From assembly GCF_003646465.1 (NCBI RefSeq), contig NZ_QZEX01000002.1:434001-498000 (forward strand): DNA of 64,000 bases, read 5' to 3'. Of this stretch, positions 9,974 through 25,345 are shown in pieces. A program made the position numbers and the translations under genes. Numbering within the stretch: position 1 is the stretch's first letter; each line of letters starts with the position of its first letter. A model generated the notes under the pieces. It was not told the origin of the DNA, did no database searches, and saw nothing but the letters and a program-made list of their open reading frames with translations. The DNA comes from Chachezhania antarctica (GTDB taxonomy: Bacteria > Pseudomonadota > Alphaproteobacteria > Rhodobacterales > Rhodobacteraceae).

Positions 9974-10011
9974 TTACAGGCACCTACAGTTCGTCTCGTT
10001 TCCGCTCATCA

Positions 10012-10080
10012 TGGACCAAACCCGTCGATTTTGACACTGGATTTGGTCCCGTGGACCAAATACAATTTCGTGGACCAAAT
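10012..10080. repeat. Repeated GGACCAAA sites with a perfect palindrome upstream of the integrase
   Basis: TGGACCAAA occurs three times (10012-10020, 10052-10060, 10071-10079). An inverted copy at 10041-10049 makes a perfect 9-bp palindrome with the second (ATTTGGTCC, 3-bp spacer, GGACCAAAT, 10041-10061). The cluster ends 12 bp before the integrase ATG. It could be an operator for int or arm-type sites for Int/Xis. Confidence 0.7.
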
Positions 10081-10092
10081 GGGGAGACCATC

Positions 10093-11304: not shown

Positions 11305-11733
11305 TCAAAGACCAACTTCATCGTGCTCGGTGAGGCATTCGGAGTGGTCACGCAACACCTCAAGGACACGGCAATCGGCGGTTCGTCCACCACTGCACTC
11401 ATGAACCATTCGTTCCAGCTCGGTTCGGAGCGCCTCTAGTCGGCTCAACCGTTGCTCCACTTGCTTAAGCTGCCGACGCGCAATGGCATCAGCGTCGGCG
11501 CAGGATGTCCCAGGATTGTCGCTCAAATTCAGAAGTTCACGAATAGCGTCAAGCGAGAAACCCAGTTGCCGAGCGTGTCGAACAAATGACAGCCTATCTA
11601 GTTCAGCATCTCCGTAGCGGCGTTGACCGCCTTCGGTTCTGCCTGGTTCGGGCATCAACCCTATCTGCTCGTAGTAGCGGATCGTCTGGACCTTTGTCCC
11701 GGTTTTTCTCGCCATCGCGCCAATTGTCAGCAT
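11305..11733 (-). CDS. MerR-family regulator, Zn/Cd/Pb-sensing type
   Basis: A 142-residue metal-responsive activator. The N-terminal winged helix is typical (MLTIGAMARKTGTKVQTIRY), followed by a long coiled-coil helix and a C-terminal metal loop. Cysteines at C78, C113 and C121 match the ligand positions of ZntR/CadR/PbrR-like members, and an extra C133 follows. The start at 11733 is chosen because family proteins begin here; upstream in-frame starts lead to 11805. It is divergent from the SCO operon, with a 19-bp-spacer promoter between them (11843-11873). Similar promoters lie before the L,D-transpeptidase and the P1B ATPase, so it probably controls all three. Zn, Cd and Pb cannot be told apart by eye. 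Confidence 0.85.
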   Translation of the reverse strand: MLTIGAMARKTGTKVQTIRYYEQIGLMPEPGRTEGGQRRYGDAELDRLSFVRHARQLGFSLDAIRELLNLSDNPGTSCADADAIARRQLKQVEQRLSRLEALRTELERMVHECSGGRTADCRVLEVLRDHSECLTEHDEVGL

Positions 11734-11842
11734 CTTACCCGACCTCATACCTACAGCGAGTGTAGCTTCGCGCCAGATCGATGACAAGTCTGAACCGTCA
11801 TTCACAGTTCAGTGAAGCTGTTCCTTGCGACGTCATCTTGGC

Positions 11843-11873
11843 TTGAAGCTATAGCTGCTAGAGGTCGTACACG
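11843..11873 (+). promoter_or_regulatory. MerR-type promoter/operator of the SCO operon
   Basis: A -35 element TTGAAG (11843-11848), a 19-bp spacer holding the imperfect dyad CTATAG-CTG-CTAGAGG, and a -10-like TACACG (11868-11873). The over-long 19-bp spacer is the mark of promoters activated by MerR-family proteins. It lies between divergent merR and the SCO gene. Confidence 0.75.
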
Positions 11874-11909
11874 AAGCCCGAGCAAACAATCGGAATCGGG
11901 CAAAGCAGT

Positions 11910-12512
11910 GTGAACCTTTCCAACTTGCAGAAAATACTGTGGGCGATGGCGGCCACGGCAGCACTTTTGTACATCGGCTTGCTACTGCGGCCTGACTCTG
12001 TCTCCGAAAACGAGCGGACCGCAAGCGATAGCCCGTTTTTCGCGGAATTCGAGCTGACGGATCATCGTGGCATGGTCCAAACACAGCGTGACTTCTCCGG
12101 CCGCTGGATGCTGATTTTCTTCGGATTCACAAATTGCCCGGACATTTGTCCGACAACACTCTCCGAGGTCGCCGCCGTAATGGAGGGACTGGGCGGCGAG
12201 GCAGAAAAGGTCCAGCCCATTTTCATTACAATAGACCGCGAACGCGATAGTCCGATGGTACTCTCCCAATACGTGGAGCAATTCGAAGCAGGTATAATTG
12301 GTCTGACTGGCACGGCTAACCAGATGGCTGCGATATCTGATAGCTTCCCCATATTTTTTGAAAGGAACGAGGAGGCATCCGCTCCGGGGGGCTACACAAT
12401 GAGCCATACCTCGAACTTGTTCCTATTTGACCCACAGGCGGGTTACTCAACCTCGTGGCCCTACGGCACGTCCGCTGAAGAGATCCTTGCTGATCTGCAG
12501 GAAAGGATCTGA
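11910..12512 (+). CDS. SCO1/SenC-family protein (first copy)
   Basis: A 200-residue membrane-anchored periplasmic thioredoxin-fold protein. A single N-terminal helix (about 9-27) precedes the SCO core with the copper/redox motif C76-P-D-I-C80 and the partner histidine H166 (TMSHTSN). SCO proteins bind copper and serve cytochrome oxidase CuA assembly or periplasmic thiol redox. The start is a GTG at 11910. It is the first gene of the operon behind the MerR-type promoter. A second SCO gene lies four genes downstream, and the two differ enough to be old paralogues. Confidence 0.9.
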   Translation: MNLSNLQKILWAMAATAALLYIGLLLRPDSVSENERTASDSPFFAEFELTDHRGMVQTQRDFSGRWMLIFFGFTNCPDICPTTLSEVAAVMEGLGGEAEKVQPIFITIDRERDSPMVLSQYVEQFEAGIIGLTGTANQMAAISDSFPIFFERNEEASAPGGYTMSHTSNLFLFDPQAGYSTSWPYGTSAEEILADLQERI

Positions 12513-12517
12513 CCGAC

Positions 12518-12940
12518 ATGAAACGCATTCCCGGAGACATGGCCATCGGGCTGGCCTGGACCGTCGCCACTTCTGCCTCGTTGGCGGTTCTTTTCATCGG
12601 CGAAGTGCTCGGCCAAACGCCCTGTCTGCTCTGCTGGTTTCAACGCGCCTTCATGTTTCCGCTGGCGATCATCCTCGGGCTAGGGCTGTGGTGGAATGAC
12701 CATGGCGTCGGGCGCTACGGGATCGCGCTCGCCTTAGGCGGCGCGGCCGTGGCGGTCTGGCATTTGGGCCTCTATGCGGGCCTGGTCCCCGAGCAAATTC
12801 AGCCCTGCACCGCGACCGGCCCCTCCTGCACCGACGACAACCAGCTGGTCTTCGGAATTCCGATTCCGCTGATGGCCTTGGTCGCCTTCACCGTGATTGG
12901 AGCACTCTCCGCCCTCTCCCTGAAGGAACCGCAAGAATGA
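12518..12940 (+). CDS. DsbB/BdbC-like disulfide bond formation protein
   Basis: A 140-residue four-helix membrane protein that would reoxidise a DsbA partner and pass electrons to quinone. Both cysteine pairs are present: C36-L-L-C39 in the first periplasmic loop and C97/C104 in the second. The short length fits the BdbC subgroup better than E. coli DsbB (176 residues). It starts 5 bp after the SCO gene, and its stop overlaps the start of the DsbA-like gene as ATGA, so the oxidase and its partner are co-translated. Confidence 0.9.
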   Translation: MKRIPGDMAIGLAWTVATSASLAVLFIGEVLGQTPCLLCWFQRAFMFPLAIILGLGLWWNDHGVGRYGIALALGGAAVAVWHLGLYAGLVPEQIQPCTATGPSCTDDNQLVFGIPIPLMALVAFTVIGALSALSLKEPQE

Positions 12941-13596
12941 ACAGACGTGCCCTGATCCTCTCCGTGCTCACCTTTGGTCTAGCAGGGTTTGGCGCAGCAT
13001 CCTGGTATGTGACCCGCCCTTCTCCGGCCCCCGTGGGAGAGGCCGTTCCGCCGGAACTGTCCGATGCGCTGATCCGGTCCTACTCGCCGATCCTCGGGTC
13101 GGAAACCGCACCTGTAACGATTGTCGAATTCTTCGACCCGGCCTGCGAGGCTTGTCGGGCCTTTTATCCGGTGGTCAAGAACATCATGTCCGAACACGGC
13201 AACGACGTGCGCGTGGTGATCCGTTACACGCCATTTCATGGTGAGGCGTCAGAAGAGGCCATCCGAGTGCTCGAGGCGGCTCGCATGCAAGACGTCTTCG
13301 AACCCGTGCTCGAAGCCGTCCTGCGCGAGCAGCCGCGTTGGGCCTCTCATGGGGCGCCTGAACCGGATCTGATACTCGATATTGCCGCCTCCGCCGGACT
13401 GGACGTCGAGGAGGCGCGTGAACAGTTGCTCTTTCCAGGGACGACGGCCGTTCTCAACCAGGATCGCGCGGATGTCGAAGCCATGGGCGTAGTCCAGACA
13501 CCGACCTTTTTCGTGAACGGCCGCCCGCTAAACCCGTTCGGTGAGGACGAACTGCGACGCCTCGTGGCGGCCGAAGTCGCCGCGGCGCGGAGCTGA
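12937..13596 (+). CDS. DsbA-family thioredoxin-fold oxidoreductase
   Basis: A 219-residue periplasmic protein with an N-terminal signal anchor (about 1-24) and a DsbA/thioredoxin fold. The active site is C70-E-A-C73, followed late by the cis-proline loop (VVQTPTFFVNG). It probably oxidises cysteine pairs in exported proteins and is recharged by the adjacent DsbB-like protein, with which it overlaps by 4 bp. The motif CEAC is unusual compared with CPHC of E. coli DsbA, so its redox potential may differ. Plausible clients are the SCO, DUF411 and L,D-transpeptidase proteins of the same cargo. Confidence 0.88.
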   Translation: MNRRALILSVLTFGLAGFGAASWYVTRPSPAPVGEAVPPELSDALIRSYSPILGSETAPVTIVEFFDPACEACRAFYPVVKNIMSEHGNDVRVVIRYTPFHGEASEEAIRVLEAARMQDVFEPVLEAVLREQPRWASHGAPEPDLILDIAASAGLDVEEAREQLLFPGTTAVLNQDRADVEAMGVVQTPTFFVNGRPLNPFGEDELRRLVAAEVAAARS

Positions 13597-13599
13597 ACC

Positions 13600-14088
13600 A
13601 TGCAAATCGGAAAGGCTGTTGTGAAGAAGAACCATCTCATCAAAGTACTTGTTTCGCTGCTGACATTCGTGGGCGCTCCAACATCAACTCTGGCAGGTTC
13701 GGAGGATTTGGTCGTCGAGGGCGCATGGGCCCGGGCATCTATCGGGACAAGCCGCCCCGGCGCCGCCTACATGAGCATTCGCAATACCGGTGACACGCCT
13801 GTGACTATCGTCGGCCTGGCGACACCAATCGCACAGATGTCCGAGATACACGAAACCCGAACCAATGCCGAAGGCGTGAGCTCCATGTCCTCAGCCGGGG
13901 AGATTACTATCGAGCCGGGCCAGAACGTGGCACTGGAGCCGGGCGGTCTGCATGCAATGCTGATGCGCCTGCAGTCGCCGATGCAGGAAGGAGAGAGCTT
14001 TCCGCTAACGCTGAAGTTCGACAACGGAAGCACGGTTGAAATCGTGGTCCCCATCCTAGGAATAGCGGCGCGCGGTCCGAGCGAGTGA
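13600..14088 (+). CDS. PCu(A)C-type periplasmic copper chaperone
   Basis: A 162-residue exported protein (signal peptide about 1-32) of the PCuAC family (DUF461). The copper site motif is complete in spacing: H84, M96, then H118-x-M120, with the optional methionine after H84 replaced by glutamate. PCuAC hands Cu(I) to CuA or SCO sites of cytochrome oxidase, and here it is sandwiched between two SCO genes. It overlaps the next SCO gene by 4 bp. Confidence 0.9.
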   Translation: MQIGKAVVKKNHLIKVLVSLLTFVGAPTSTLAGSEDLVVEGAWARASIGTSRPGAAYMSIRNTGDTPVTIVGLATPIAQMSEIHETRTNAEGVSSMSSAGEITIEPGQNVALEPGGLHAMLMRLQSPMQEGESFPLTLKFDNGSTVEIVVPILGIAARGPSE

Positions 14089-14702
14089 TGCGGCGACGGA
14101 CAATCCTTGGATACGCCGTAGCCGGCGCCGGGGCGCTTGCTTCCGTGCTCTTATTCGGTTGGTGGCAGGTAGACGGCCCAGGTGCGCCGGAATCGACCGG
14201 CCTGCTTCCCCTTGACCTATCCGTCATGGATTTCAGCTTGACCGACCACGAGGGCAACGAGGTCGGGCCAGAATCTCTGATCGGGCGCCCGTCCATGGTG
14301 TTCTTCGGCTTCACCTACTGTCCGGACGTATGCCCGACCACACTGTCGGACATCTCTGGCTGGTTGGACGAGCTGGGCGACGACGCCACGGAGATGAATG
14401 TGGTCTTTATCACCGTCGATCCTGCGCGAGACACCGTCGAAACGATGGAAGAGTATGTCAGCTATTTCCATTCAGCTATCCGTGGATGGACCGGGGCCCA
14501 AGATCAGATCGCACAAGCCGTGCGCGGTTTCCGTGCAAGCTACGAGCGCGTACCGACCGAAAGCGGCGATTACACGATGAACCATACCGCGAGTGTCTTC
14601 CTGTTCGATCGTTCGGGCCGGTTCGTCTCCATGATTGACTATCACGAACCGAGAGAATTCGCCGTGCCTAAAATCCGGCGTGCACTTGAAGAAGAATCTT
14701 AG
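14085..14702 (+). CDS. SCO1/SenC-family protein (second copy)
   Basis: A 205-residue membrane-anchored SCO protein with an N-terminal helix (about 8-27), the motif C79-P-D-V-C83 and the partner histidine in YTMNHTASVF. Function and fold are as for the first copy. It starts inside the PCuAC stop (ATGATG), giving a PCuAC-SCO pair, the usual minimal set for copper delivery to CuA. Two SCO proteins may split the work between copper transfer and thiol reduction. Confidence 0.9.
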   Translation: MMRRRTILGYAVAGAGALASVLLFGWWQVDGPGAPESTGLLPLDLSVMDFSLTDHEGNEVGPESLIGRPSMVFFGFTYCPDVCPTTLSDISGWLDELGDDATEMNVVFITVDPARDTVETMEEYVSYFHSAIRGWTGAQDQIAQAVRGFRASYERVPTESGDYTMNHTASVFLFDRSGRFVSMIDYHEPREFAVPKIRRALEEES

Positions 14703-14711
14703 GGGGCCACC

Positions 14712-16091
14712 ATGAAGTTTGGAATATTCGCGGCAAGTTTCACAGGCTTAGCGGCATTGTCAGCTGGGGGACTTGCATTATCCTGGGAATGGTCGATCGA
14801 TCCAGTTCCTCCGGAGCTCGCCGCAGCTAGCGCGTGGTCTCCGCCGGCGTTGCAAGCTCCCAGGGTTTTGGAAACCGCCTTTCCGGCACAGGGACAGCCA
14901 GGTATCGAAAGAATTCCCGAATTCAAACCCTTGCCGCTCCTGCAGGAGATCGCGGCCAGCGACAATGCATTGCCGGAGATTGAACCCGTTCTGACGAGAT
15001 GGTCGCGCGAAATCGCGCCTGGCGAAACCCTCGATGCAGTCCTGGCGGAGGCCGGCCTCGCGGCAAACACACGGGCAGAAGTCGCCTTGGCAATAGGTGC
15101 TGAATATGACCTGCGGCGCCTCCGGCCCGGACATTCCATCACCCTCATCTCGAACGCACATGGTGCTGCGCGCTCGGTATCGCTTACCGTCGGAGACGGT
15201 GTTCGAATTGAGGCCACCTTCGGTGAAGAGCTGTCTACATCAGTCGTTTCACCTGAACCCGAACTCGTAACACTCGCGGGTGAGGCGGTGATCGGCAGTT
15301 CACTCTTCGCCGCCCTCGAAGAGGCCGAGATGCCCGCCCGGTTTGCCGTGGACCTTGCGCAAATGCTCGGCGGAACTGTGGATTTCCGTCGTGACATGTC
15401 GGGCGGCGAAAAACTGCAACTTCTTTGGAGAGAGGCCCGGCTTGGAAACGAAAGAATCGGGCAGCCTGACCTGGCATTCGCTGCTCTGGAGATCGGCGGA
15501 GCCCTCTACGAAATCGTCTGGCCGGATAACGGAAGCGGTCAGGCGACGATCTATGTGGACGGTGAGGTCTTGCGGGTCTTTGCACAACCGGTCGAAGGTG
15601 CGCGCCTCAGTTCTGTTTTTGGACGTCGCACACACCCGGTCTATGGCAATGTTCGAATGCACACTGGAGTCGACTTCGCAGCAGCGGGTGGAACTCCGGT
15701 CCATGCGACAGCCCCCGGTCAAGTCAGCTTCATCGGCTGGCGGAATGGGTACGGCCGCGTCGTCGAACTCACTCACGGCTCGGACACCATGACGAGATAC
15801 GCGCATCTAAGCTCGACCCCCGACGAGCTCGCTCAAGGCCAGCGCGTGGCGGCGGGGGACATGATTGGTCGCGTCGGCGCCACCGGTACGGCAACCGGGC
15901 CCAATCTTCACTACGAAGTTCTCGTCGAAGGTCGCCCAACCGATCCTCTCTCCGACGACCGTCTCGCCAATGCAATAGAGCGCCAGGCGGATGATGATAC
16001 CTACGCGTTGTCACGCCTTGCTGAGGCACGCGCCCGTCTGGCCACCAGCCTGGAACGCGAGATCGCCCGGCAAGCAACTGAAAGCCTGTGA
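14712..16091 (+). CDS. M23-family (LytM-type) peptidoglycan endopeptidase
   Basis: A 459-residue exported protein. After an N-terminal signal/anchor (about 1-22) comes a LysM-like/OapA-like region (GETLDAVLAEAGLAANTRAE, about 105-140) and a C-terminal M23 domain (about 295-415). Zn ligands are H317-x-x-x-D321 (MHTGVDF), H365 (YAHLS) and H400 (LHYEV), so the enzyme should be active on peptide cross-links. It sits in the metal operon 9 bp after the second SCO gene. Cell-wall cutting here pairs with the L,D-transpeptidase encoded further on. Confidence 0.9.
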   Translation: MKFGIFAASFTGLAALSAGGLALSWEWSIDPVPPELAAASAWSPPALQAPRVLETAFPAQGQPGIERIPEFKPLPLLQEIAASDNALPEIEPVLTRWSREIAPGETLDAVLAEAGLAANTRAEVALAIGAEYDLRRLRPGHSITLISNAHGAARSVSLTVGDGVRIEATFGEELSTSVVSPEPELVTLAGEAVIGSSLFAALEEAEMPARFAVDLAQMLGGTVDFRRDMSGGEKLQLLWREARLGNERIGQPDLAFAALEIGGALYEIVWPDNGSGQATIYVDGEVLRVFAQPVEGARLSSVFGRRTHPVYGNVRMHTGVDFAAAGGTPVHATAPGQVSFIGWRNGYGRVVELTHGSDTMTRYAHLSSTPDELAQGQRVAAGDMIGRVGATGTATGPNLHYEVLVEGRPTDPLSDDRLANAIERQADDDTYALSRLAEARARLATSLEREIARQATESL

Positions 16092-16094
16092 CCC

Positions 16095-16550
16095 ATGAAT
16101 AGTCTGAAACATATACTTGTTTTCGCAATCTCACTGCTTCCGGCTGCCCAGGCATTCGCAGAAGTTACAGCTATCGAGGTTCGCAAGACGAACGGCTGTG
16201 GCTGCTGCCTGTCGTGGATGAACCATCTCGAGGAAAACGGTTTTGTTCCCACCGGCGAAGACATGTTCGGCGGGCTGCTGGTTCGTTTCAAGCTGGAGAG
16301 AGGTGTGCCCCAACGCATGGTCTCCTGCCATACCGGTTTGGTGGAAGGATATGTGATCGAAGGGCATGTACCGGCTTCCGACATCCGCCGTCTTCTGGAA
16401 GAACGTCCTGACGCAATCGGCCTTGCGGTGCCCGGAATGCCTTACGGTTCGCCCGGCATGGGTCCCGAAGAAGACCGGGAAGCCTACGATGTCTTTCTAA
16501 TCCGGCAGGACGGGTCGACCGAGATCTACTCGAGTTACCCAGAAGGGTGA
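16095..16550 (+). CDS. DUF411 metal-binding protein
   Basis: A 151-residue periplasmic protein (signal peptide about 1-22) of the DUF411 family, often found beside copper or silver resistance genes. Conserved features are the cysteine cluster C35-G-C37-C38 (NGCGCC), the SCHTG motif (C78-H79) and H91 in EGHVP, a likely soft-metal site. The gene starts 3 bp after the M23 peptidase stop. A role as a periplasmic metal sequestration or delivery protein is inferred, as none is firmly established for the family. Confidence 0.85.
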   Translation: MNSLKHILVFAISLLPAAQAFAEVTAIEVRKTNGCGCCLSWMNHLEENGFVPTGEDMFGGLLVRFKLERGVPQRMVSCHTGLVEGYVIEGHVPASDIRRLLEERPDAIGLAVPGMPYGSPGMGPEEDREAYDVFLIRQDGSTEIYSSYPEG

Positions 16551-16562
16551 ACCAGCTCAGAC

Positions 16563-17345
16563 ATGGACACCCTGCCCCCGATACTGCTCGGTCTGATTGG
16601 AAGTCTCGCCGCCGGCACGCTGACGGCCGTCGGCGCGGTGCCCGTTTTGTTCGGTCACATTCCGTCGCGGGCAACTCGCGACCTGTCGCTCGGCTTCGCG
16701 GCCGGGGTGATGCTTGCCGCCTCCTTTTTCTCCTTGATTATCCCTGCACTCGATGCCGCCGAAACCTTGTTCGACAACGGAGCTGCACCGGCCGCCATCG
16801 TCTGCGTTGCGATCCTTCTGGGAATGGGGGCGGTAGCGCTGATGAACGAGAAGCTGCCCCATGAACACTTCAGATCGGGTCGTGAAGGACCGGAGGCGGA
16901 GTCCTTGCGGCGGGTTTGGCTCTTCATCTTCGCGATTACGATTCACAACTTCCCAGAGGGCCTTGCAGTCGGCGTGGGATTTGGTTCGGGAGGCATGGAG
17001 GGCGGTCTGCCGATCGCGATCGGCATCGGTCTTCAGAACGCTCCTGAGGGGCTCGCCGTCGCGGTATCGCTCTTGGGTGAAGGGTATCCCAGGCTCCGCG
17101 CCTGGGCCATCGCGGCCCTCACCGGCATGGTCGAACCGATTGGTGGCTTGCTCGGAGCGGGCATCATCACACTGTCGGAACCGCTACTCCCATGGGGCCT
17201 CGCCTTTGCAGCAGGTGCGATGCTTTACGTAATCAGCCACGAAATAATTCCTGAGACTCATCGAAGCGGCCATCAGAACAAAGCGACCCTCGGACTATCA
17301 ATTGGCCTTGTTCTCATGTTGTTTCTAGACGTTTGGCTGGGGTGA
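16563..17345 (+). CDS. ZIP-family metal transporter (ZupT-like)
   Basis: A 260-residue inner-membrane transporter with about eight helices. The binuclear site motifs are present: H128-N-F-P-E-G133 in helix 4 and Q158-N-A-P-E-G163 in helix 5, as in ZupT/GufA-type ZIPs. ZIPs bring Zn and other divalent ions into the cytosol, which is odd in a resistance cargo. It may restore essential Zn or Mn while the P1B ATPase expels toxic ions, or it may run outward as suggested for some GufA proteins. The gap to DUF411 is 12 bp. Confidence 0.88.
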   Translation: MDTLPPILLGLIGSLAAGTLTAVGAVPVLFGHIPSRATRDLSLGFAAGVMLAASFFSLIIPALDAAETLFDNGAAPAAIVCVAILLGMGAVALMNEKLPHEHFRSGREGPEAESLRRVWLFIFAITIHNFPEGLAVGVGFGSGGMEGGLPIAIGIGLQNAPEGLAVAVSLLGEGYPRLRAWAIAALTGMVEPIGGLLGAGIITLSEPLLPWGLAFAAGAMLYVISHEIIPETHRSGHQNKATLGLSIGLVLMLFLDVWLG

Positions 17346-17349
17346 CGAC

Positions 17350-17832
17350 ATGCCGCCCTCTCTAAAAGCGTCAGTTAGCGGCACTCTTGCCATTTTCATC
17401 GCTTTCTCCGTCGATCAAGTCACAAAAGCTATCGTGGTTGCGAATGCGGAATCCCTGCGCGCTAGCGTCCCGATCGCCCCTGGGTTTAATCTCACGTACT
17501 TGCGTAATGACGGCGTGACCTTCGGCCTTCTCAGCGGCACATCATGGTGGGTCCTGGCGGCGCTGGCCATTGCCGTCTGCGTCTGGTTGACGTTCATGAT
17601 GTGTCAAGCTGCCAACAGAGTCGAAGCCGTCGCATACGGCGCGATCATAGGAGGCGCTTTCGGCAACGTAACGGATCGCCTGCGTTTTCAGGGGGTCACG
17701 GATTTCCTCGATTTCTATGTGAGCACCGCCCATTGGCCCGCCTTCAATATGGCCGATGTGTTTGTGGTATGTGGCGTCGGATTGCTCCTCATTGGGCCGA
17801 AGGTCCAGCAAGCACACCAGAGTGGTCCATGA
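17350..17832 (+). CDS. lspA: Lipoprotein signal peptidase LspA
   Basis: A 160-residue inner-membrane aspartyl protease (signal peptidase II) that removes signal peptides from prolipoproteins. Catalytic aspartates are D109 in GNVTDRL and D136 in FNMADVF. An element-borne lspA recalls PbrC of the Cupriavidus lead operon, where an LspA homologue belongs to metal resistance. Here it is coupled (ATGA) to lnt, so the element carries two of the three lipoprotein maturation steps; lgt is not seen. Confidence 0.93.
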   Translation: MPPSLKASVSGTLAIFIAFSVDQVTKAIVVANAESLRASVPIAPGFNLTYLRNDGVTFGLLSGTSWWVLAALAIAVCVWLTFMMCQAANRVEAVAYGAIIGGAFGNVTDRLRFQGVTDFLDFYVSTAHWPAFNMADVFVVCGVGLLLIGPKVQQAHQSGP

Positions 17833-19412
17833 GGTCGCCTTTGCCTTTTTGCAGAGGCTGGGTGACTTCCTTGCCGTCTCGCGCCATTGTCGCGACCGCA
17901 GCAGGAGCGATGACCGTTCTGTCGCTTCCGCCCTTCTCGATCATTCTGCTCGTGCCCGTATCCTTTTCAGTGCTGCTACTTCTGCTGCGCGCTGGTTCCG
18001 TCGGGGCGGCCGCACTGGTGGGGTGGGCCTTCGGCCTCGGTCAGTTCGGCTTCGGCCTCTCATGGATCTCCGAGAGCTTCTATGTGGACCCCGATAAATT
18101 CGGGGCGCTGGCCATCCCGGCCGTTGCCGCACTGGCCGCCGGTCTGGCCACCTTTCCGGCCTTGGCGGCGGCGCTGTTTTCCGGCACTATGTCCCGCCGT
18201 GCAGTCACCGGCGTAACGACCTGCCTGCTGTTCGCAACCTCGTGGACGGCGGCAGAGTGGCTGCGCGGGCACGTCCTCACGGGATTTCCCTGGAACCTCA
18301 CCGCCTACGCCCTTGTCGACTACCCGACACTGAGGCAGCCGGCCGCATGGATTGGCAGCTATGGGCTGGGCTTTCTTTTAGTCCTGGCCGGAACGCTGCC
18401 GGCCGCGGCCCTGGTGACGGAGAGACGGCGGCGCTGGGTCCCCGCTAGTCTATTCGCGGCTGTGATCGCGACGATATGGACCGTAGGCCAAGGCCGACTC
18501 GGGTTAGAGCCGGGACCTGCGCCCGATGCCGATGTGCGTATAGTCCAAGGCAACGTGCCGCAAAGGGAGAAGTGGGCGCCCGAACAGCGAGACGAGACCT
18601 TAACGCGCTATCTGGACCTCTCGAGCGGTCCCGGCGAGGTGGATGTGCTCCTGTGGCCGGAAACCGCCTTTCCGGGCTTTCTCGATGAGGATCTGCGGGC
18701 GCGATCTCGCATTGCCGCCATCTTGCAGGACGGCGCTTTGCTTCTGACCGGCGTCCCGGACCGCACGCGAAAGGACCAAGAAACGCTCTATTTCAACACC
18801 GTCCAAGCTTACAATCAAACCGGAGACATTCTGACCGGCTATGCAAAACACCATCTCGTTCCATTCGGCGAGTATGTCCCCTTCCGCGGCTGGCTTAAGC
18901 TCGACCGGATCACCCAAGGCCTGGGAGACTTTACGCCCGGTGCAGGACCGCGAACGCTGACCCTGCCCGGCGCTCCCCCGCTGGCTGTGGCCATCTGCTA
19001 CGAGATCATCTTTCCGGGCGACGTCATCGACGATCAGCATCGGCCCGACTGGATATTCAACGCAACAAACGATGCCTGGTTCGGCACCAGTATAGGACCC
19101 GAGCAGCACCTTGCTGCGGTCCGCATGCGTGCCGTCGAAGAAGGACTTCCGATTGTGAGGGCCGCGAACACCGGCATCTCAGCGGTAATCGACGCGAAGG
19201 GCGAGCTCATTGTGAAGCTTGGCATCGAAGAGACCGGTGTCATCGATGCCGAACTTCCCGGCGCCCTAAAACCCACGCCATATGCACGGTTCGGCGACTG
19301 GATGTTCCTGGCGTTAATCGCCGTTACTTGGATCGTGTTTCTTGGCTCAAGGCTGTCAGGCATGCATCGGGCAAGAAATAAAAAAGCATCAGTGGAGGCA
19401 AAGTCATGTTGA
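17829..19412 (+). CDS. lnt: Apolipoprotein N-acyltransferase Lnt
   Basis: A 527-residue inner-membrane enzyme that adds the third acyl chain to lipoproteins. An N-terminal membrane block of about six helices precedes the nitrilase-like periplasmic domain. The catalytic triad is E278 (LLWPETAF), K340 (YAKHHLVPFGEY) and C390 (AICYEIIF), all intact. A longer open frame upstream to 17544 lies in the lspA gene and is not used; the ATG at 17829 overlaps the lspA stop. The host surely has its own essential lnt, so this is an additional copy. Confidence 0.93.
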   Translation: MRSPLPFCRGWVTSLPSRAIVATAAGAMTVLSLPPFSIILLVPVSFSVLLLLLRAGSVGAAALVGWAFGLGQFGFGLSWISESFYVDPDKFGALAIPAVAALAAGLATFPALAAALFSGTMSRRAVTGVTTCLLFATSWTAAEWLRGHVLTGFPWNLTAYALVDYPTLRQPAAWIGSYGLGFLLVLAGTLPAAALVTERRRRWVPASLFAAVIATIWTVGQGRLGLEPGPAPDADVRIVQGNVPQREKWAPEQRDETLTRYLDLSSGPGEVDVLLWPETAFPGFLDEDLRARSRIAAILQDGALLLTGVPDRTRKDQETLYFNTVQAYNQTGDILTGYAKHHLVPFGEYVPFRGWLKLDRITQGLGDFTPGAGPRTLTLPGAPPLAVAICYEIIFPGDVIDDQHRPDWIFNATNDAWFGTSIGPEQHLAAVRMRAVEEGLPIVRAANTGISAVIDAKGELIVKLGIEETGVIDAELPGALKPTPYARFGDWMFLALIAVTWIVFLGSRLSGMHRARNKKASVEAKSC

Positions 19413-19573
19413 CGATCGCGGGTATCCTCGCAGGAGCAATCTGGGGTGGGTATCTGGCGCGTCGCCGTAAAGGAAACCGGCTGGATATCATGCAATATGC
19501 GGTCAGCTCGGGTATCGCTTTTGGCCTCCTGACTTTCTTCGTATCATTGGTCTTCCTGCGTTTGGCGTCTTAG
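19406..19573 (+). CDS. 55-residue membrane protein coupled to lnt
   Basis: A short gene overlapping the lnt stop. The ATG at 19406 is preceded by GGAGG inside lnt. It encodes 55 residues: a first hydrophobic helix (MLTIAGILAGAIWGGYLA), a basic loop (RRRKGNRLD) and a second helix ending at RLAS. The basic loop predicts a hairpin with both ends outside. Overlap, ribosome site and amphipathic layout argue that it is real. The function is unknown; an accessory of Lnt/LspA is a guess from position only. Confidence 0.65.
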   Translation: MLTIAGILAGAIWGGYLARRRKGNRLDIMQYAVSSGIAFGLLTFFVSLVFLRLAS

Positions 19574-19596
19574 AAAACCTTTGAGGTGCCATAAAA

Positions 19597-21498
19597 TTGC
19601 GACGTCTTTTCAGAACTTTGCTGTATACTTTCGGGACTCTCGCCACTTTGGCTCTGGCTGTATCGGCGTTCATGTACGTATTACTGACCGCATCTGTTCC
19701 GGACTACGACGAAGACTTCACAGTCGCTGGCATAGAACAGACAGTCGATGTTCTGAGAGACTCCTTTGCAATCCCACATATTATAGGGAGTTCGGCTGCC
19801 GACATATACTTCGCGATTGGGTTTTCCCACGCGCAGGACAGGCTGAGCCAATTATTAAGCGCACGACAGAAAGCGAACGCAGGACGACTTGCGAACCTGA
19901 CGATCCCCCTCCCAAATACTGTCGAAGACGACCTTGCAGCCTATACAGCCGGCGTCAACGCATGGCTGGACATTGTCTCTAAGGGTTGGCGAGGTCGTGG
20001 CGCCCCGGAATTATTGATCTCCGGCCAAAATGAAATTACGCCTTGGAGGCCCGCGGATAGCCTCAACATCGCGAAGTATTTCCTGGCCAGCCTCCGTCTG
20101 ACGCCCCATGAGTTAGCCAATTCTGGCCTCGTTGAAGACACGCCCTCAGAAAATCCACCATTTCCCCAAGATATGATCACGTATAACCCTAGAGTGAGCC
20201 TTGATGCGTGGGCGGTGGAAAGTGCCCAAAGCGTGACTGGAGTTCCTATTCTTGCCGCGGATAGTATTGGTCCTCTATCCTTACCTTCAGAATGGTACTT
20301 GGCTGATCTTCAGTTACCGACAGGGGCAGTCATGGGGAGTACTCTGCCGGGAATACCGTTCGTATTTGTGGGGCGCAATGACCGTATCGCATGGGCATTC
20401 CGTTCAAGTGACTTTCCTCGTGACGAAGCACTGGAACCACTTCAGGTTGCGAGCGCGGTCAGCTTCATAACCATATTAGAAAAACTTCCCCGATCAACCG
20501 ACGCAGGCGACGCGGTTGAAGAGGCATCGGACATTTTGCCTGCAGGATTGGAAATATTGGTTATTGATCGGAACACCTCGGCTTCAAGTCCACAAGACGA
20601 TCGCTCTCGAAAACCATCGCTTCGAGCCTTGCGCCTGTCCACACTTCAGGACCGGCAGACAGTCTTCTCCATGGAGGGTGTGAAAGCAGTCCAGCGCGAT
20701 ACCGTGAGCGAAGCTTCGCGAGTCTTGCTCCCACTGATGGCCCGCGAGCTCTGGTTTCAAAACCCCGTTCTTTCCAGCGAAGATCGGAACCTCGTCCAGC
20801 TTCGGAGCCAGGTTCTTGATCTTCTCGCTGCATGGAACGGAAATATGGATCGCTATTCGCCTGAGCCTCTGGCTTTCTGGGCTTGGTCACTCGCTCTGCA
20901 ACGACGCATCCTCAAAGACGAGTTCCCCATACAAGAGCAGCTGTGGAAACTTCCAAATCCTGAATTCCTTATCTCGGCTCTTAGCGCACGAGGCGAGAGT
21001 GCCGACTGGTGCGATATCCGGACATCATCACGGGTCGAAACCTGCCAAGATCAGATTGAAGCAGCACTGGACGATGCGGTTGACTGGTTAAACCAGCGCC
21101 ATGGCTCCGACCCCTCCAGCTGGATGTGGGGAAGTGAGCATTACGTGGAAATGAACTCGTCGACGATATCATCAGAAGGTCTGCTGAAGGAATTCCTGTC
21201 TCTTCGGAAAGAAATCTCCGGGGATCCATATACGCAGTTCTCCACATCCTTCGATCCTACGAATGATCGCCCATTTGTCAGCAATACTGGCAGCAACTTT
21301 CAGGCGATCATGAGTATGTCGGAAGACATGGCCTCCTACTTCCTGCTGCCTGCCGGACAGTCGGGGCATCCAATGTCACCATTCTTCGACAACTTTTTTC
21401 AAATCTGGAGCCAGAATGCGTATCTGACGATGACCTCAGACCTGTCGGCGGCGAGAAGTGGCTCCGTTGGATTGTCGCGTCTATCGCCCGACCGGTAA
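19597..21498 (+). CDS. Penicillin-acylase family protein lacking the serine nucleophile
   Basis: A 633-residue exported protein (anchor about 7-32) with the penicillin/AHL acylase fold. The alpha-part starts VAGIEQTVDVLRDSFAIPHI; the beta-part shows PILAADSIGPLSLPSEWYLA and VGRNDRIAWAF; the C-terminal GQSGHPMSPFF is normal. In active enzymes the beta chain begins S-N-x-W. Here the equivalent stretch is V-S201-L202-D-A-W205, so the nucleophile position is Leu and self-cleavage is not expected. It is also shorter than usual (about 750-800). It is the last gene of the 12-gene operon. A binding or structural role seems likelier than hydrolysis, unless S201 takes over. Confidence 0.8.
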   Translation: MRRLFRTLLYTFGTLATLALAVSAFMYVLLTASVPDYDEDFTVAGIEQTVDVLRDSFAIPHIIGSSAADIYFAIGFSHAQDRLSQLLSARQKANAGRLANLTIPLPNTVEDDLAAYTAGVNAWLDIVSKGWRGRGAPELLISGQNEITPWRPADSLNIAKYFLASLRLTPHELANSGLVEDTPSENPPFPQDMITYNPRVSLDAWAVESAQSVTGVPILAADSIGPLSLPSEWYLADLQLPTGAVMGSTLPGIPFVFVGRNDRIAWAFRSSDFPRDEALEPLQVASAVSFITILEKLPRSTDAGDAVEEASDILPAGLEILVIDRNTSASSPQDDRSRKPSLRALRLSTLQDRQTVFSMEGVKAVQRDTVSEASRVLLPLMARELWFQNPVLSSEDRNLVQLRSQVLDLLAAWNGNMDRYSPEPLAFWAWSLALQRRILKDEFPIQEQLWKLPNPEFLISALSARGESADWCDIRTSSRVETCQDQIEAALDDAVDWLNQRHGSDPSSWMWGSEHYVEMNSSTISSEGLLKEFLSLRKEISGDPYTQFSTSFDPTNDRPFVSNTGSNFQAIMSMSEDMASYFLLPAGQSGHPMSPFFDNFFQIWSQNAYLTMTSDLSAARSGSVGLSRLSPDR

Positions 21499-21611
21499 GG
21501 CTTACGCCAGACTCCAACAGAATAAGTCGCGGGCATGGACATGGAAGCTCGCCGAATGGTTCGGAAAACCAGATTGACCTCAGGATGAGTTGCCCTCACA
21601 CTTACCAAGAT

Positions 21612-21634
21612 CCTATAGCTCCTAAAGCTATAGG
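21612..21634. repeat. Perfect dyad CCTATAGCT / AGCTATAGG
   Basis: A 9-bp perfect inverted repeat with a 5-bp centre lies 113 bp after the acylase stop and 99 bp before the lipoprotein start. The half-site (CTATAG) matches that in the MerR-type promoter at 11843, but the spacing differs and no -35/-10 pair fits. It may be an operator or the end hairpin of the long operon. Confidence 0.45.
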
Positions 21635-21733
21635 TAACACCGCAAGATGGATCGGATCGATCCAAGTGCGTTGGACAGCGACCTGGAGTGGCAACATGAC
21701 AGGAAAGCAATAGACGCCCCAATGGAGGCAGCC

Positions 21734-22021
21734 ATGCAAACAAAGTACAGAAACTGTTCCCTAGTAATTATCGCCTCCGCTCTGCTTGCCAGCTGCGGGA
21801 TCACAAACACGGAAGGCCAGAACGATCGATATGAAATCGGCAATATTCCAGAGAATGTTGTTGCCATGGCCGCTCCCGATCAGGATTTGTCGACGGCTCG
21901 CCTGCTAAGCGAAGACGATTGTTACTGGTATATGCATGCCGGCCCAGTGGAAACCACTCTCGTGCCGCTTCGCGCAACAGGCGGCCGCCCAATATGCGTG
22001 GTGCAGCCGCCGGTATCATGA
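21734..22021 (+). CDS. Small lipoprotein, unknown function
   Basis: A 95-residue protein with a lipoprotein signal peptide ending in LLASC (lipid-attachment cysteine at about 20), so it is a predicted client of the lspA/lnt pair in the same cargo. The mature part has two more cysteines (DDCYWYM and RPICVVQ) that could pair. ATG 21734 has GGAGG upstream; the frame open to 21647 is not supported. It converges on the L,D-transpeptidase across a strong hairpin. No family is recognised. Confidence 0.7.
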   Translation: MQTKYRNCSLVIIASALLASCGITNTEGQNDRYEIGNIPENVVAMAAPDQDLSTARLLSEDDCYWYMHAGPVETTLVPLRATGGRPICVVQPPVS

Positions 22022-22027
22022 GCGATT

Positions 22028-22060
22028 TCTGGCCTTCCACGCCTCAGGTGGAAGGCCAGA
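22028..22060. terminator. Strong two-way hairpin between lipoprotein and L,D-transpeptidase
   Basis: A perfect 13-bp stem (TCTGGCCTTCCAC / GTGGAAGGCCAGA) with a 7-nt loop fills the 41-bp gap between the two convergent stop codons. Few T residues follow, but the stem is long and well placed for both transcripts. Confidence 0.75.
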
Positions 22061-22062
22061 GT

Positions 22063-22725
22063 TCATCCCGGCATCACGAGGCTTTCCTCGGCTGAGTAAA
22101 GGTAGACTGTCGAACCGATTTCAACATTCTCGAACAGATCAATTATATGCGCCATCACCATTCGGACGCAGCCCGAGCTTGCCCGCCCGCCAATGCTTTC
22201 TGGATACGGGGTGCCATGAATGCGGAGATATGTGTCCCTGTCGCCGACATACAGATAGATGGCTCTTGAACCGAGTGCATTTTCGGGGCCGGGCTCCACA
22301 CCACCTGCATACTGAGCATTCTCGGGGTTCCGCTCGATCATGTTTCGTGTAGGCCGCCAGTGCGGCCACCTAACCATGCGTTTGACGGTGTACGTACCTG
22401 GCTCGTAGAGATCCCCTTGGGCAATGGCCACACCATAGCGCATGGCGGTACCGCCTTCTTCTATGTGGTAAAGGTACCTTGCCACTGCATCGACATGGAT
22501 ATCTCCGGGACGCAGCTCGTCGTTCGCCAATACTCTTTGAGGGAGGAACCTGGGATGCAGCCCCCAAGGGTTTGTGGTCGCGGGATCATAGCCAAGCGGA
22601 GTGACCTGCGCGTCCCAAGCGGTTTTCTGTTCTTCGCTGGGCCAGTTATTGGCAAACGAAAGCGTCGGGATCGACGATGGGAGCAGCGCCGCAGTTGTCT
22701 GTATAAAGTGTCGTCTCGTCAGCAT
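22063..22725 (-). CDS. L,D-transpeptidase (YkuD domain)
   Basis: A 220-residue exported enzyme with a twin-arginine-like start (MLTRRHFIQTTAALLPSS) and a YkuD catalytic domain. The active-site motif is complete: H170-G-T and S183-S-G-C186-V-R188. Such enzymes make 3-3 peptidoglycan cross-links or attach proteins to the wall through the cysteine thiol. ATG 22725 is chosen over an upstream start at 22812 because the MerR-type promoter (22782-22812) would overlap the longer frame. Copper is known to inhibit L,D-transpeptidases, so a metal-induced extra copy makes sense as a replacement. Confidence 0.9.
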   Translation of the reverse strand: MLTRRHFIQTTAALLPSSIPTLSFANNWPSEEQKTAWDAQVTPLGYDPATTNPWGLHPRFLPQRVLANDELRPGDIHVDAVARYLYHIEEGGTAMRYGVAIAQGDLYEPGTYTVKRMVRWPHWRPTRNMIERNPENAQYAGGVEPGPENALGSRAIYLYVGDRDTYLRIHGTPYPESIGGRASSGCVRMVMAHIIDLFENVEIGSTVYLYSAEESLVMPG

Positions 22726-22781
22726 CTCAAGTTTCCCAAATACACAGTGAACCGGTTCGATCGCTTGTACGCGATAGATGC

Positions 22782-22812
22782 GGTATAAAACCTCTAGCCC
22801 CTGTAGCATCAA
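22782..22812 (-). promoter_or_regulatory. MerR-type promoter of the L,D-transpeptidase gene
   Basis: Read on the minus strand: TTGATG (22812-22807), a 19-bp spacer with CTACAG-GGG-CTAGAGG, and TATACC (22787-22782). The dyad and spacing match the promoters at 11843 and 22998. The transcript would begin about 50 bases before the ATG at 22725. Confidence 0.75.
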
Positions 22813-22997
22813 GGGTCTTCGCGGTTTTTGTAGTGGAAAGCATCACATCCGTCGAAAAGTGAATCTCCTGCAGTTCTGGTCGCGACAGAACCCGATCAGA
22901 TTGGCGATGAATCCCACTAGATAGCAGCCGTTCGCTGATACCGACCTCGATCAAAGAGCAATGTGGGCGAAGCAATCCATGCAGCATCGAAAAGGAC

Positions 22998-23028
22998 TTG
23001 AAGCTACAGTTACTTTAGCCTGTAAGAA
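22998..23028 (+). promoter_or_regulatory. MerR-type promoter of the P1B ATPase gene
   Basis: TTGAAG (22998-23003), a 19-bp spacer containing CTACAG-TTA-CTTTAGCC, and TAAGAA (23023-23028). Same layout as the other two MerR-type promoters, with a weaker right half-site. It lies about 50 bp upstream of the ATPase ATG. Confidence 0.75.
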
Positions 23029-23080: not shown

Positions 23081-25345
23081 ATGAGTGGAGCCGAGCGCCG
23101 GGAGTGGACTGTCAGCGGCATGGATTGTGCCGCCTGCACTGTAAAAGTGACGAAGGCGGTCGAGCGCCTCCCGGGTGTCAGAGATGTAAAGGTCGCCCTG
23201 ATGAGCGAACGCCTTTCGCTTGATCTCGAGCCTGCCCGGACGGACCCGACGGAGATCGAAACCATCGTGAAGCGTCTCGGATACGGAATTGCGCAGCGTG
23301 GCGCTACATCGGAGAGAAAACCGCTCGACGCCGCGGACAAGCCGCTTAGCCATGGTCACGACTGTGACGGCCATGACCGTGAACACGATCACGACGGGAC
23401 GCCGCCAGACGAGGGCGACGCGGGGCATGGCAGCCCAGGTCACGTGCATGACGACCCCGCCGATCGCGGCAAGAATTGGTATCAGACCGACAAGGGCCGG
23501 CTGGTGATCTTCACCGGCGCCTTGCTGGTCCTGGCCTGGGGGTTCGAGCTTCTGACCTCGGCGGACTACGGCTACTGGGCCTTTGCCCTCGCCTGCGTGA
23601 TCGGGGTCGCCCCGGTGGCCAGGCGCGCCTTCGAGGCCGTTCGCCTCGGCCAGCCTTTCACCATCGAAAGCCTGATGACCATTGCAGCCGTCGGCGCCTT
23701 ATTTATCGGCGCAGCCGAGGAAGCGGCACTTGTCGTGTTTCTTTTTGCAGTGGGCGAGGTACTGGAAGGCGTGGCCGCTGGCAAGGCACGCGACGGTATC
23801 CGAGCGCTGGCCAGTTTGGTGCCCAAGACCGCGCTTCTGGAAATCGACGGCAAGACCCGCGAAGTCCCGGCCGACCAGCTTCAAATTGGCCAGCGCGTTT
23901 TGGTACGTCCCGGCGACCGGATCCCCTCCGACGGCGAGATTTTCGAGGGCACTAGCGGTATCGACGAAAGCCCGGTCACCGGCGAAAGTGTACCCGTTAC
24001 CCGGGGTCCGGGTGAGAAAGTCTTTGCAGGGTCGATCAACACCGAAGCCGCGCTTCGCGTGACGGTCACGAAAACTGCGGCGGACAACACGATTGCGCGC
24101 ATCATTCAGCTGGTCGAGGACGCCGAGGACGCCCGCGCGCCGACCGAGCGATTCATTGATCGATTCAGCCGCTGGTACATGCCAGCCATCGTCGCGCTCG
24201 CGGCACTGGTCATCCTGATCCCGCCGCTGTTGACAGGGGCGGACTGGGGTACCTGGATCTATCGTGGCCTCGCATTGTTGCTCATCGGCTGCCCCTGCGC
24301 GTTGGTGATCTCGGTTCCGGCCTCGATTGCCTCTGCGCTGTCCTCAGGCGCCAAGAAAGGTCTGTTGATGAAGGGGGGCGCGGTGATCGAGTCCACCGCA
24401 AAGGTCTCGGCCATCGCCTTTGACAAGACCGGCACGCTGACCCATGGCAAACCCAAGGTGACCGACGTCCTGCCCGCCCTTGGCGTCACAGAAGACAACC
24501 TGCTGGCCGTGGCCGCCGCAGTCGAGACCGGATCGTCGCACCCGCTGGCTCAAGCCATCCTCCGCCGAACGGAGGAGGCCGGGATCGAGGCTCTGCCCGC
24601 GACAGAAGCGCGCGCGATCGTGGGTAAGGGCGTTGAAGCGCTGGTCGGCGGCACGAAGGCCTGGGTGGCATCGCCACGCCATGCCGAGGTGGCCGGGGGT
24701 ATCGCCGCCGGCCAGGCCGAGTTCGCGGCACAGCTCGAGACTGAGGGCAAGACCGTGGTCGCGGTGTTCCGTTCCGGCCAACCCCTCGGCCTCGTTGCCT
24801 TGCGCGACGAGCCGCGCGGCGACGCCGCCGAGGCCATGGCCCAACTGCGGGCGATGGACATCGCCCCAGTTATCCTGACCGGCGACAATCCCCGCACGGC
24901 CGAGGCCATCGCCGGGAGGCTCGGCATGGAATTCCACGCCAGCATGATGCCCGAGGACAAGCTGAGGCTGATCCGCGAGATGGGCGCATCCGGCGGCGTC
25001 ATGATGATTGGCGACGGCATCAACGACGCACCAGCGCTAAAGCAGGCGAACGTAGGTGTGGCGATGGGCTCCGGCACCGACGTGGCGCTGGAAACCGCCG
25101 ATGCGGCGATCCTGCGCGACAGGGTGGTGGACATACCTGCCCTGATCCGGCTCGCCCGAGCCGCCATGGCCAACATCCATCAGAACGTGGCCCTGGCACT
25201 GGGTCTGAAAGCTGTGTTTTTGGTAACGTCGGTGCTAGGGCTGACCGGGCTCTGGATCGCCATCCTGGCCGATACCGGCGCAACAGTGCTGGTCACGCTC
25301 AACGCCCTGCGACTGTTGCGCTTCAACCCGTCTGACAATCGCTAG
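23081..25345 (+). CDS. P1B-type heavy-metal ATPase (Zn/Cd/Pb exporter)
   Basis: A 754-residue inner-membrane pump. It has an N-terminal HMA domain with GMDC16-A-A-C19, a His/Asp-rich linker (about 87-125), eight membrane helices, the ion site C404-P-C406, the phosphorylated D448 (DKTGTLT), the SSHP signature, TGDN and GDGINDAP. The CPC motif with His-rich linker and no copper-type signatures points to the P1B-2 (ZntA/CadA) group, which exports Zn(II), Cd(II) and Pb(II). AGGAG precedes the ATG. It has its own MerR-type promoter. The gene is standard; cadA or zntA would both be reasonable names. Confidence 0.93.
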   Translation: MSGAERREWTVSGMDCAACTVKVTKAVERLPGVRDVKVALMSERLSLDLEPARTDPTEIETIVKRLGYGIAQRGATSERKPLDAADKPLSHGHDCDGHDREHDHDGTPPDEGDAGHGSPGHVHDDPADRGKNWYQTDKGRLVIFTGALLVLAWGFELLTSADYGYWAFALACVIGVAPVARRAFEAVRLGQPFTIESLMTIAAVGALFIGAAEEAALVVFLFAVGEVLEGVAAGKARDGIRALASLVPKTALLEIDGKTREVPADQLQIGQRVLVRPGDRIPSDGEIFEGTSGIDESPVTGESVPVTRGPGEKVFAGSINTEAALRVTVTKTAADNTIARIIQLVEDAEDARAPTERFIDRFSRWYMPAIVALAALVILIPPLLTGADWGTWIYRGLALLLIGCPCALVISVPASIASALSSGAKKGLLMKGGAVIESTAKVSAIAFDKTGTLTHGKPKVTDVLPALGVTEDNLLAVAAAVETGSSHPLAQAILRRTEEAGIEALPATEARAIVGKGVEALVGGTKAWVASPRHAEVAGGIAAGQAEFAAQLETEGKTVVAVFRSGQPLGLVALRDEPRGDAAEAMAQLRAMDIAPVILTGDNPRTAEAIAGRLGMEFHASMMPEDKLRLIREMGASGGVMMIGDGINDAPALKQANVGVAMGSGTDVALETADAAILRDRVVDIPALIRLARAAMANIHQNVALALGLKAVFLVTSVLGLTGLWIAILADTGATVLVTLNALRLLRFNPSDNR

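Follow-up and report, generated by a model that had tools for sequence, protein, structure and literature searches.

Which regulator governs the envelope genes that a mobile element carries beside a metal efflux pump? We address this question for a 64,000-nucleotide stretch of the marine bacterium Chachezhania antarctica (Rhodobacteraceae; assembly GCF_003646465.1, contig NZ_QZEX01000002.1, positions 434,001–498,000), hereafter the window, which lies on a 744-kb contig (C12) of a host genome of 5,036,402 bases (5.04 Mb). Behind an integrase gene, the element carries in order merR (minus strand), a 12-gene operon (plus strand) opening with a SCO1/SenC gene, a small lipoprotein-like gene, an L,D-transpeptidase gene (LDT, minus strand), a putative ZntA-type P1B ATPase gene, a LysR gene and a conjugation block. 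MerR metal regulons are mostly small. A sequence-only reading of this DNA had proposed that three promoters on the element share one dyad and 19-bp spacers and form a single MerR regulon. We consider it highly probable that the promoters of the SCO operon, the LDT and the ATPase form one regulon under the CadR/PbrR-like MerR protein that the element encodes; this protein would induce the pump, the LDT and the 12-gene operon together and repress its own gene. A conserved mobile regulon of this kind would couple metal sensing to the cross-linking of peptidoglycan, the formation of disulfides and the maturation of lipoproteins, and so link metal resistance with upkeep of the envelope.

Direct reading of the sequence bore out the three promoters, each with TTGA(A/T)G, a dyad and a spacer of exactly 19 bp. 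Before the SCO operon (11843..11873, plus strand), TTGAAG (11843-11848) is followed by the dyad CTATAGCTGCTAGAG (11849-11863), GTCG and TACACG (11868-11873). The LDT promoter (22782..22812, minus strand) comprises TTGATG (22812-22807), the dyad CTACAGGGGCTAGAG (22806-22792), GTTT and TATACC (22787-22782), and that of the P1B ATPase (22998..23028, plus strand) comprises TTGAAG (22998-23003), the dyad CTACAGTTACTTTAG (23004-23018), CCTG and TAAGAA (23023-23028). The common layout is thus TTGA(A/T)G, a 19-bp spacer (3/3) holding a CTnnAG-N3-CTnnAG dyad, and a −10 box beginning with TA. A −35/−10 spacing of 19–20 bp is given as the rule for MerR-activated promoters (PMC1526738). In all three sites the dyad centre lies 7 bp from the 3′ end of the −35 box, following the rule for 21-bp sites, and this is the distance published for CadR-PbrR sites (PMC5045206). 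The dyad core also agrees with CCTGTAGTTACTACAGG, reported as a measured CadR site (PMC12301328). A ZntR-type site would differ, as the ZntR consensus ACTCTGGAGTCGACTCCAGAGT is described with a 20-bp spacer (PMC1526738), whereas the spacers in the window are 19 bp long.

Comparison with related Rhodobacteraceae loci carries most of the weight. The comparison set held 65 sequences (1,278,418 bases): representatives of 21 of the 22 LDT clusters described below (L114 left out), L152 and L153 (both from genome G239), an island on host contig C11, 40 MerR-relative regions of 10.7–19.9 kb from genomes of the family, hand-picked for spread among the MerR matches (L186 also from G239), and the window; only identical 36-mers were merged. 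It contained 94 exact sites (87 distinct 36-mers) and 54 sites at one mismatch, against 0 exact and 8 one-mismatch sites in the reversed sequences and likewise 0 and 8 in three first-order Markov sets together. Although the −10 box was outside the search pattern, TA stood at the 19-bp spacing in 81/87 distinct exact sites; at the other spacings from 15 to 24 bp it occurred in at most 14 sites (at 21 bp), where TA at 19 bp in itself precludes TA at 18 or 20 bp. This retention is the strongest sign that the sites would be working MerR-type promoters. By gene class, distinct sites at 0–1 mismatch kept TA at 19 bp in 36/36 cases before P1B ATPases, 23/27 before LDTs and 23/26 before SCO1 genes.

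The genes behind these sites recur from locus to locus. Downstream of the sites at 0–1 mismatch we found P1B ATPases (40), LDTs (28, three distant ones included), SCO1 (26), DUF411 (3), PCuAC (3), CDF (2), M23 (2) and MerR (1); another 43 sites had no known downstream gene, and several of the 20 inspected among them precede transglutaminase-like or CDF genes. All 22 loci having SCO1 carry a site before it at 0–1 mismatch, and where M23 leads the operon the site precedes M23 instead (L192, exact; L209, one mismatch). Median distances from site to start were 67 bp for SCO1, 63 bp for P1B and 89 bp for LDT. Among the matches listed, a MerR of at least 70% identity was present in 36/37 genomes with an LDT of at least 368.8 bits, compared with 72/394 genomes overall (Fisher p about 1e-29); genomes whose LDT fell just below that cut were counted as lacking it, and physical linkage on one island contributes to the association. 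Since the same promoter precedes the SCO operon, the LDT and the P1B ATPase across genera with its 19-bp geometry kept, and MerR travels together with the LDT, the proposal of one MerR regulon joining the three gains support as an inference, and its wiring appears to recur in many related bacteria.

One such relative is plasmid pDSHI01 of Dinoroseobacter shibae, which has been termed a model organism (PMC9426580); the metal tests described there (Cu, Co, Zn and Ag) compared strains differing in another, 102-kb plasmid and have no bearing on pDSHI01. Its gene order runs LDT, small hypothetical, P1B, hypothetical, an MntR-annotated gene, Lnt, LspA, ZIP, DUF411, M23 and SCO, then PCuAC, a thioredoxin-domain protein, DsbB, a second SCO, MerR (annotated as a helix-turn-helix protein), a cation transporter, a transglutaminase-like protein and CDF. 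In strain DFL 12 these genes include DSHI_RS18260 (LDT), RS18265 (P1B), RS18330 (SCO), RS18335 (MerR) and RS18350 (CDF). Exactly four sites in this 29.8-kb stretch match all fixed letters, including the TA of the −10 box, and they precede the LDT, the P1B ATPase, the SCO operon and the transglutaminase/CDF genes. No site of this kind occurred in five Markov control sequences. The adjoining stretch of the plasmid (L307, 1024-9944) carries a copper P-type ATPase, a multicopper oxidase, two further LDT genes, DsbB and Lgt, so that envelope enzymes recur beside copper genes.

The host itself holds a second version. An island on contig C11 (L036, C11:1-20000) encodes a MerR 73% identical to that of the window, and its operon has the same order (SCO1, DsbB, DsbA, PCuAC, SCO2, M23, DUF411, ZIP, LspA, Lnt). 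Its sites are exact before the P1B ATPase and before a transglutaminase-like frame close to the end of the contig, and have one mismatch before CDF and before the SCO operon. The predicted regulon logic is therefore repeated within the host genome and, as each island has its own MerR, the two regulators might cross-talk. The sequence-only reading's statement that one MerR gene is present holds for the element, where merR is also the sole MerR match found on the 744-kb contig in a search of the host's own genome, and fails for the genome as a whole.

Upstream of the LDT, conservation was followed through the best 80 of 382 loci, which formed 22 clusters at 95% LDT DNA identity; the closest locus in the genome collection was 99% identical. 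A site at ≤3 mismatches lay within 400 bp upstream in 78/80 of these loci. The pattern TTGA-N2-CT-N2-AG-N3-CT-N2-(A/C) was matched in 19/22 clusters, and with L102 added, 20/22 clusters (≥76% identity) carry the site at 0–1 mismatch. Across clusters the distance from site to start codon varies from 79 to 153 bp, and the dyad sequences differ. Forty further LDT homologues were sampled among the matches listed and their upstream pieces scanned: below 70% identity, 0/22 had a site at 0–1 mismatch and one had it at two mismatches, and the opposite strand of the 40 pieces gave 1/40. Judged by these upstream sequences, the site marks mainly one LDT subclade. It also occurs before LDT-like genes of only 36–37% identity in L111 (7247), L195 (6297, minus strand) and L218 (4336, minus strand), once exactly and twice at one mismatch.

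The regulator itself, a 142-aa Pfam MerR protein (11305..11733, minus strand), has CadR as its best-ranked solved relative, and the sensor-region cysteines of CadR align with its own. The second-ranked solved chain, 5gpe (PbrR691), is listed just as MerR-family and shares the V-Q-T helix with the window MerR. Cysteines C78, C113 and C121 (and C133) are kept in 42/42 distinct orthologues of at least 70% identity, and all four from C78 on in 29/29 distinct orthologues of 55–70%. The counterparts of the first three in CadR are the metal cysteines C77, C112 and C119. Because CadR-type cysteines are aligned and conserved, the signal is likely a divalent thiophilic metal (Zn, Cd or Pb), despite the copper-biology names of SCO, PCuAC and DUF411. 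In the recognition helix the key residue is Q rather than E, so that with transferred numbering the E14-G5/C14 pairing is absent; an A5-Q14 pairing is given for CadR-PbrR-like proteins in PMC5045206.

CueR and ZntR were considered as the identity of this regulator and ruled out by sensor residue, spacer and hidden Markov model (HMM) cut-offs. Cys78 occupies the position corresponding to CadR C77, where CueR has Ser. CopR is reported to carry S77 (PMC11591864), and Ser fills the first sensor position in three other host MerR proteins (L003-L005). With NCBIfam, the window MerR scored 123.5 bits for CueR (cut-off 147.4) and 102.5 and 115.3 bits for ZntR (cut-offs 167.95 and 143).

We infer the following mechanism. 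Without metal, a MerR dimer would occupy the CTnnAG-N3-CTnnAG dyad, flanked by −35 and −10 boxes whose 19-bp spacing is 2 bp too long. Binding of Zn, Cd or Pb at the cysteines would then make MerR distort the DNA so that RNA polymerase can start, a mechanism established for the family, and this would jointly induce the efflux ATPase, the LDT and, on a predicted single transcript, the 12 genes from SCO1 to the penicillin-amidase gene. The dyad before merR itself differs in geometry. This dyad, CTACACTCGCTGTAG (11751..11765, minus strand), covers the −10 box (TACACT) of a promoter-like site found in the sigma-70 scan, with TTGTCA at 11787 and a 17-bp spacer. Such geometry is of the repression type and fits autorepression, by which the second dyad would keep merR repressed; the cadR gene is likewise described as unregulated or merely repressed (PMC1526738). 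By the patterns used, a dyad lies 15–45 bp before the start in 35/77 distinct orthologue upstream regions, and several others look degenerate by eye. The sequence-only reading was right about the three activator-type sites and overlooked this one. Scans for generic signals stayed near shuffle level in the window, with 6 sigma-70 promoter-like sites (shuffle mean 4.5) and 18 terminator-like structures (12.9), and they did not decide the extent of the operon.

The host-genome scan proposed with the sequence-only reading was also run. The full pattern TTGAWGCTAYAGNNNCTNKAG, fitted to the three window sites, has four exact matches in 5,036,402 bases, namely these three and one in the second metal island on C11. 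The looser pattern TTGANNCTNNAGNNNCTNNAG, with the TTGA and CTnnAG letters fixed, has six: three in the window, two on C11 and one CueR-type site on C9.

Several results weigh against the regulon as we propose it. Genome-wide, TTGANNCTNNAGNNNCTNNAG at ≤1 mismatch gave 18 matches compared with 33 for the reversed-pattern control, and TTGAWGCTAYAGNNNCTNKAG at ≤3 mismatches gave 27 compared with 168; because such counts do not exceed the controls, only exact or gene-tied sites carry weight. A single mobile island, recently copied, accounts for many of the related loci, and the counts drawn from them are not all independent. Two of the 22 LDT clusters (L084 and L110) lack the site upstream, as do two LDT paralogs that the host encodes on C3 and C15 at 74% identity, and among sampled LDTs of 70–76% identity it was found at 0–1 mismatch in 5/18, with two more at two mismatches. 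NCBIfam places the window MerR below every equivalog cut-off (CueR, ZntR, MerR and CadR-PbrR) and ranks CueR first. For the CadR-PbrR model TIGR02047 the score was 107.4 bits (cut-off 151.45), and for this reason we call the protein CadR/PbrR-like and do not file it as a CadR/PbrR member. The A5-Q14 pairing fits 3/3 window sites, but among the sites of relatives only 5/27 (LDT), 12/36 (P1B) and 7/26 (SCO1), and the recognition-code fit is not used as proof. Finally, the 73% paralog on C11 may share sites with the window MerR or cross-regulate.

This last point leads to the alternative that the sites are real and another regulator, either the C11 paralog or a CueR-type copper sensor, controls the LDT and the SCO operon, with an inducing metal that may differ from that of the pump. 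The genome does hold this second MerR, whose recognition core is likewise VQT; SCO, PCuAC and DUF411 bear copper-type names, and the copper-type module on pDSHI01 also carries LDT genes; in Rubrivivax gelatinosus, moreover, CadR and CopR are reported to cross-talk on each other's promoters (PMC11591864). We nevertheless regard this alternative as unlikely, as the element MerR travels with the LDT and its gene lies divergently next to the SCO operon. Besides their sensor Ser, the host CueR-type regulators (L003-L005) have Lys in the helix, and the sites near such regulators combine CTCCAG or TTCCAG with CTGGAG or CTGGAA halves, unlike the three in the window.

The LDT site could also be an inherited relic, the gene having been acquired together with a metal-responsive promoter whose induction plays no part in resistance. 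The near confinement of the site to one LDT subclade (0/22 below 70% identity at 0–1 mismatch, one at two) and the descent of many loci from one island (the best 80 of 382 loci fell into 22 clusters) would suit such a history. Yet the site persists in 20/22 clusters at variable distance and with differing dyads, the −10 box is kept at 19 bp in 23/27 distinct LDT sites, and the three LDT-like genes of 36–37% identity (L111, L195, L218) have the site too, which makes a mere relic improbable. Chance resemblance of the three promoters would accord with the weak enrichment of the dyad alone in the window (27 occurrences at ≤2 mismatches; shuffle mean 18.58, sd 4.90, with 5/100 shuffles reaching 27) and with the genome-wide mismatch counts, but we reject it as extremely improbable given four exact full-pattern matches in 5.04 Mb, three of them in the window, the sites in related loci set against zero exact control matches, the TA at 19-bp spacing and the conservation by gene class across genera. 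The proof beyond chance is comparative, resting on conservation among related loci.

Returning to the single CadR/PbrR-like regulon, its breadth calls for an explanation. In a class-wide sample, a MerR at E 1e-45 or better was found in 54/385 genomes. Among 29 loci from these 54 genomes, most of the distant ones show merR next to a CDF-like or P1B gene, and SCO-Dsb genes adjoin the closest MerRs (L226-L228). These neighbourhoods suggest that a simple regulon for a pump came first and was broadened afterwards, the order of events being deduced from the present-day loci. As to purpose, and more tentatively, the element may provide reserve copies of envelope enzymes, many of them relying on catalytic cysteines, for times when the metal disables the housekeeping versions. 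It is possible, if rather doubtful, that under Zn, Cd or Pb stress a second set of LDT, Lnt, LspA, DsbA/DsbB, SCO and M23, enzymes that the metal may damage at their cysteines or metal centres, is added beside efflux. Wall cross-linking and lipoprotein maturation would then continue despite poisoned housekeeping copies, and a second arm of metal resistance would consist in replacing damaged machinery, beyond exporting the ion. Since copper is reported to inhibit L,D-transpeptidases (PMC8263019), metal exposure could link to wall chemistry.

Among known systems, the closest is the CadR regulon of Pseudomonas with its target cadA, which according to PMC12301328 and PMC1526738 shares the MerR-type regulator with aligned metal cysteines, the CTnnAG-N3-CTnnAG core and the 19-bp spacer; it also drives a Zn/Cd P1B ATPase, and its regulator gene is unregulated or merely repressed (PMC1526738). 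CadR of P. aeruginosa is reported to bind two genomic sites with high affinity in vitro (PMC12301328), whereas here three activator-type sites are predicted on one element. They differ from the CadR regulon in serving a 12-gene envelope operon and an LDT, and the regulator here has Q in place of E in its recognition helix. In Cupriavidus metallidurans, the pbr operon (PMC1526738) likewise groups a MerR-type regulator (PbrR) with a P1B ATPase and with a signal peptidase, PbrC, to which LspA corresponds here. No PbrT, PbrB or PbrD was seen here, without a dedicated search for them, and the predicted regulon adds SCO, Dsb, M23, DUF411, ZIP, Lnt and LDT. E. coli LdtD is also an L,D-transpeptidase induced by envelope stress, through the Cpx envelope-stress system (PMC12729407), unlike the predicted MerR metal sensor on a mobile element. 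In R. gelatinosus a CadR-type regulator acts beyond cadA as well, with copper tolerance genes as the reported targets, not cell-wall or lipoprotein enzymes (PMC11591864). A survey of the MerR family lists roughly equal numbers of sites and regulators of the CadR-PbrR type (172 proteins with 174 sites, and in the CadR-PbrR-like group 100 proteins with 110 sites; PMC5045206). The regulon predicted here is a CadR/PbrR-like one widened to envelope enzymes, broader than the pump-plus-regulator pattern. Among open-access titles and the beginnings of abstracts, we found no MerR regulon reported to include an L,D-transpeptidase or a SCO-Dsb-Lnt operon; such a regulon may already have been predicted.

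The genes concerned were assigned mainly from Pfam matches. A phage-integrase-family gene (9916-11163) precedes merR. On the plus strand, the operon comprises SCO1/SenC protein 1 (11910..12512, PF02630), DsbB (12518..12940, PF02600), a DsbA-like thioredoxin with CEAC (12937..13596, PF13462/PF01323), a PCu(A)C copper chaperone (13600..14088, PF04314), SCO1/SenC protein 2 (14085..14702, PF02630), an M23 peptidase (14712..16091, PF01551), a DUF411 protein (16095..16550, PF04214), a ZIP metal transporter (16563..17345, PF02535), signal peptidase II LspA (17350..17832, PF01252), apolipoprotein N-acyltransferase Lnt (17829..19412, PF20154/PF00795), an open frame for a 55-aa protein without Pfam match (19406..19573) and, as the final gene, a penicillin-amidase family protein (19597..21498, PF01804). 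LspA and Lnt each have three matches in the host genome (on C12, C11 and C1), so the island copies are extra ones; SCO1 has six. The residues SSGC (LDT), ICYE (Lnt), CEAC (DsbA), CLLC (DsbB) and CPDIC (SCO) are readable in the island copies and correspond to the catalytic residues of these families.

The LDT (22063..22725, minus strand) belongs to YkuD (PF03734, 1.6e-22) and carries SSGCVRM, the catalytic Cys motif of that family; its leader MLTRRHFIQ resembles a twin-arginine export signal. The small lipoprotein-like gene (21734..22021, plus strand; no Pfam match) lies tail to tail with it, an arrangement found in 24/24 loci listed; in L206, both matches fall on one strand. The putative ZntA-type P1B ATPase (23081..25345, plus strand), with an HMA domain, CPC and a His/Asp-rich stretch by profile matches and sequence, exceeds the cut-offs of the heavy-metal/cadmium subfamily models TIGR01525 (596.9; cut-off 346.25) and TIGR01512 (538.7; 313.5) and scores below those at ZntA level (859.8; 1005, and 763; 1240). 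The conjugation block comprises TrbI, CagX, VirB8, TrbL, an ATPase matching TraG and CagE/TrbE/VirB, and a T2SSE-family ATPase; past it lies a gene with an HNH_2 endonuclease domain (36206-37870).

Further candidate sites were seen both in the window and in relatives. The dyad CTATAGCTCCTAAAG (21613..21627, no strand assigned) stands within a longer palindrome upstream of the small lipoprotein gene, and its exact CTnnAG-N3-CTnnAG is kept in the relatives L041 and L153; no TTGA −35 box was found in front of it, as a further activator site would have. The earlier inventory, correct in its three promoters, had missed both this dyad and the paralogous island on C11. In L187 (11110), L191 (10098), L216 (10595) and others, a transglutaminase-like protein of ~260 aa, named by its look and the pDSHI01 annotation, has an exact site of its own. 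In L216, a one-mismatch site (14033) is followed, 61 bp after its start, by a gene for a pseudoazurin-type-looking copper protein.

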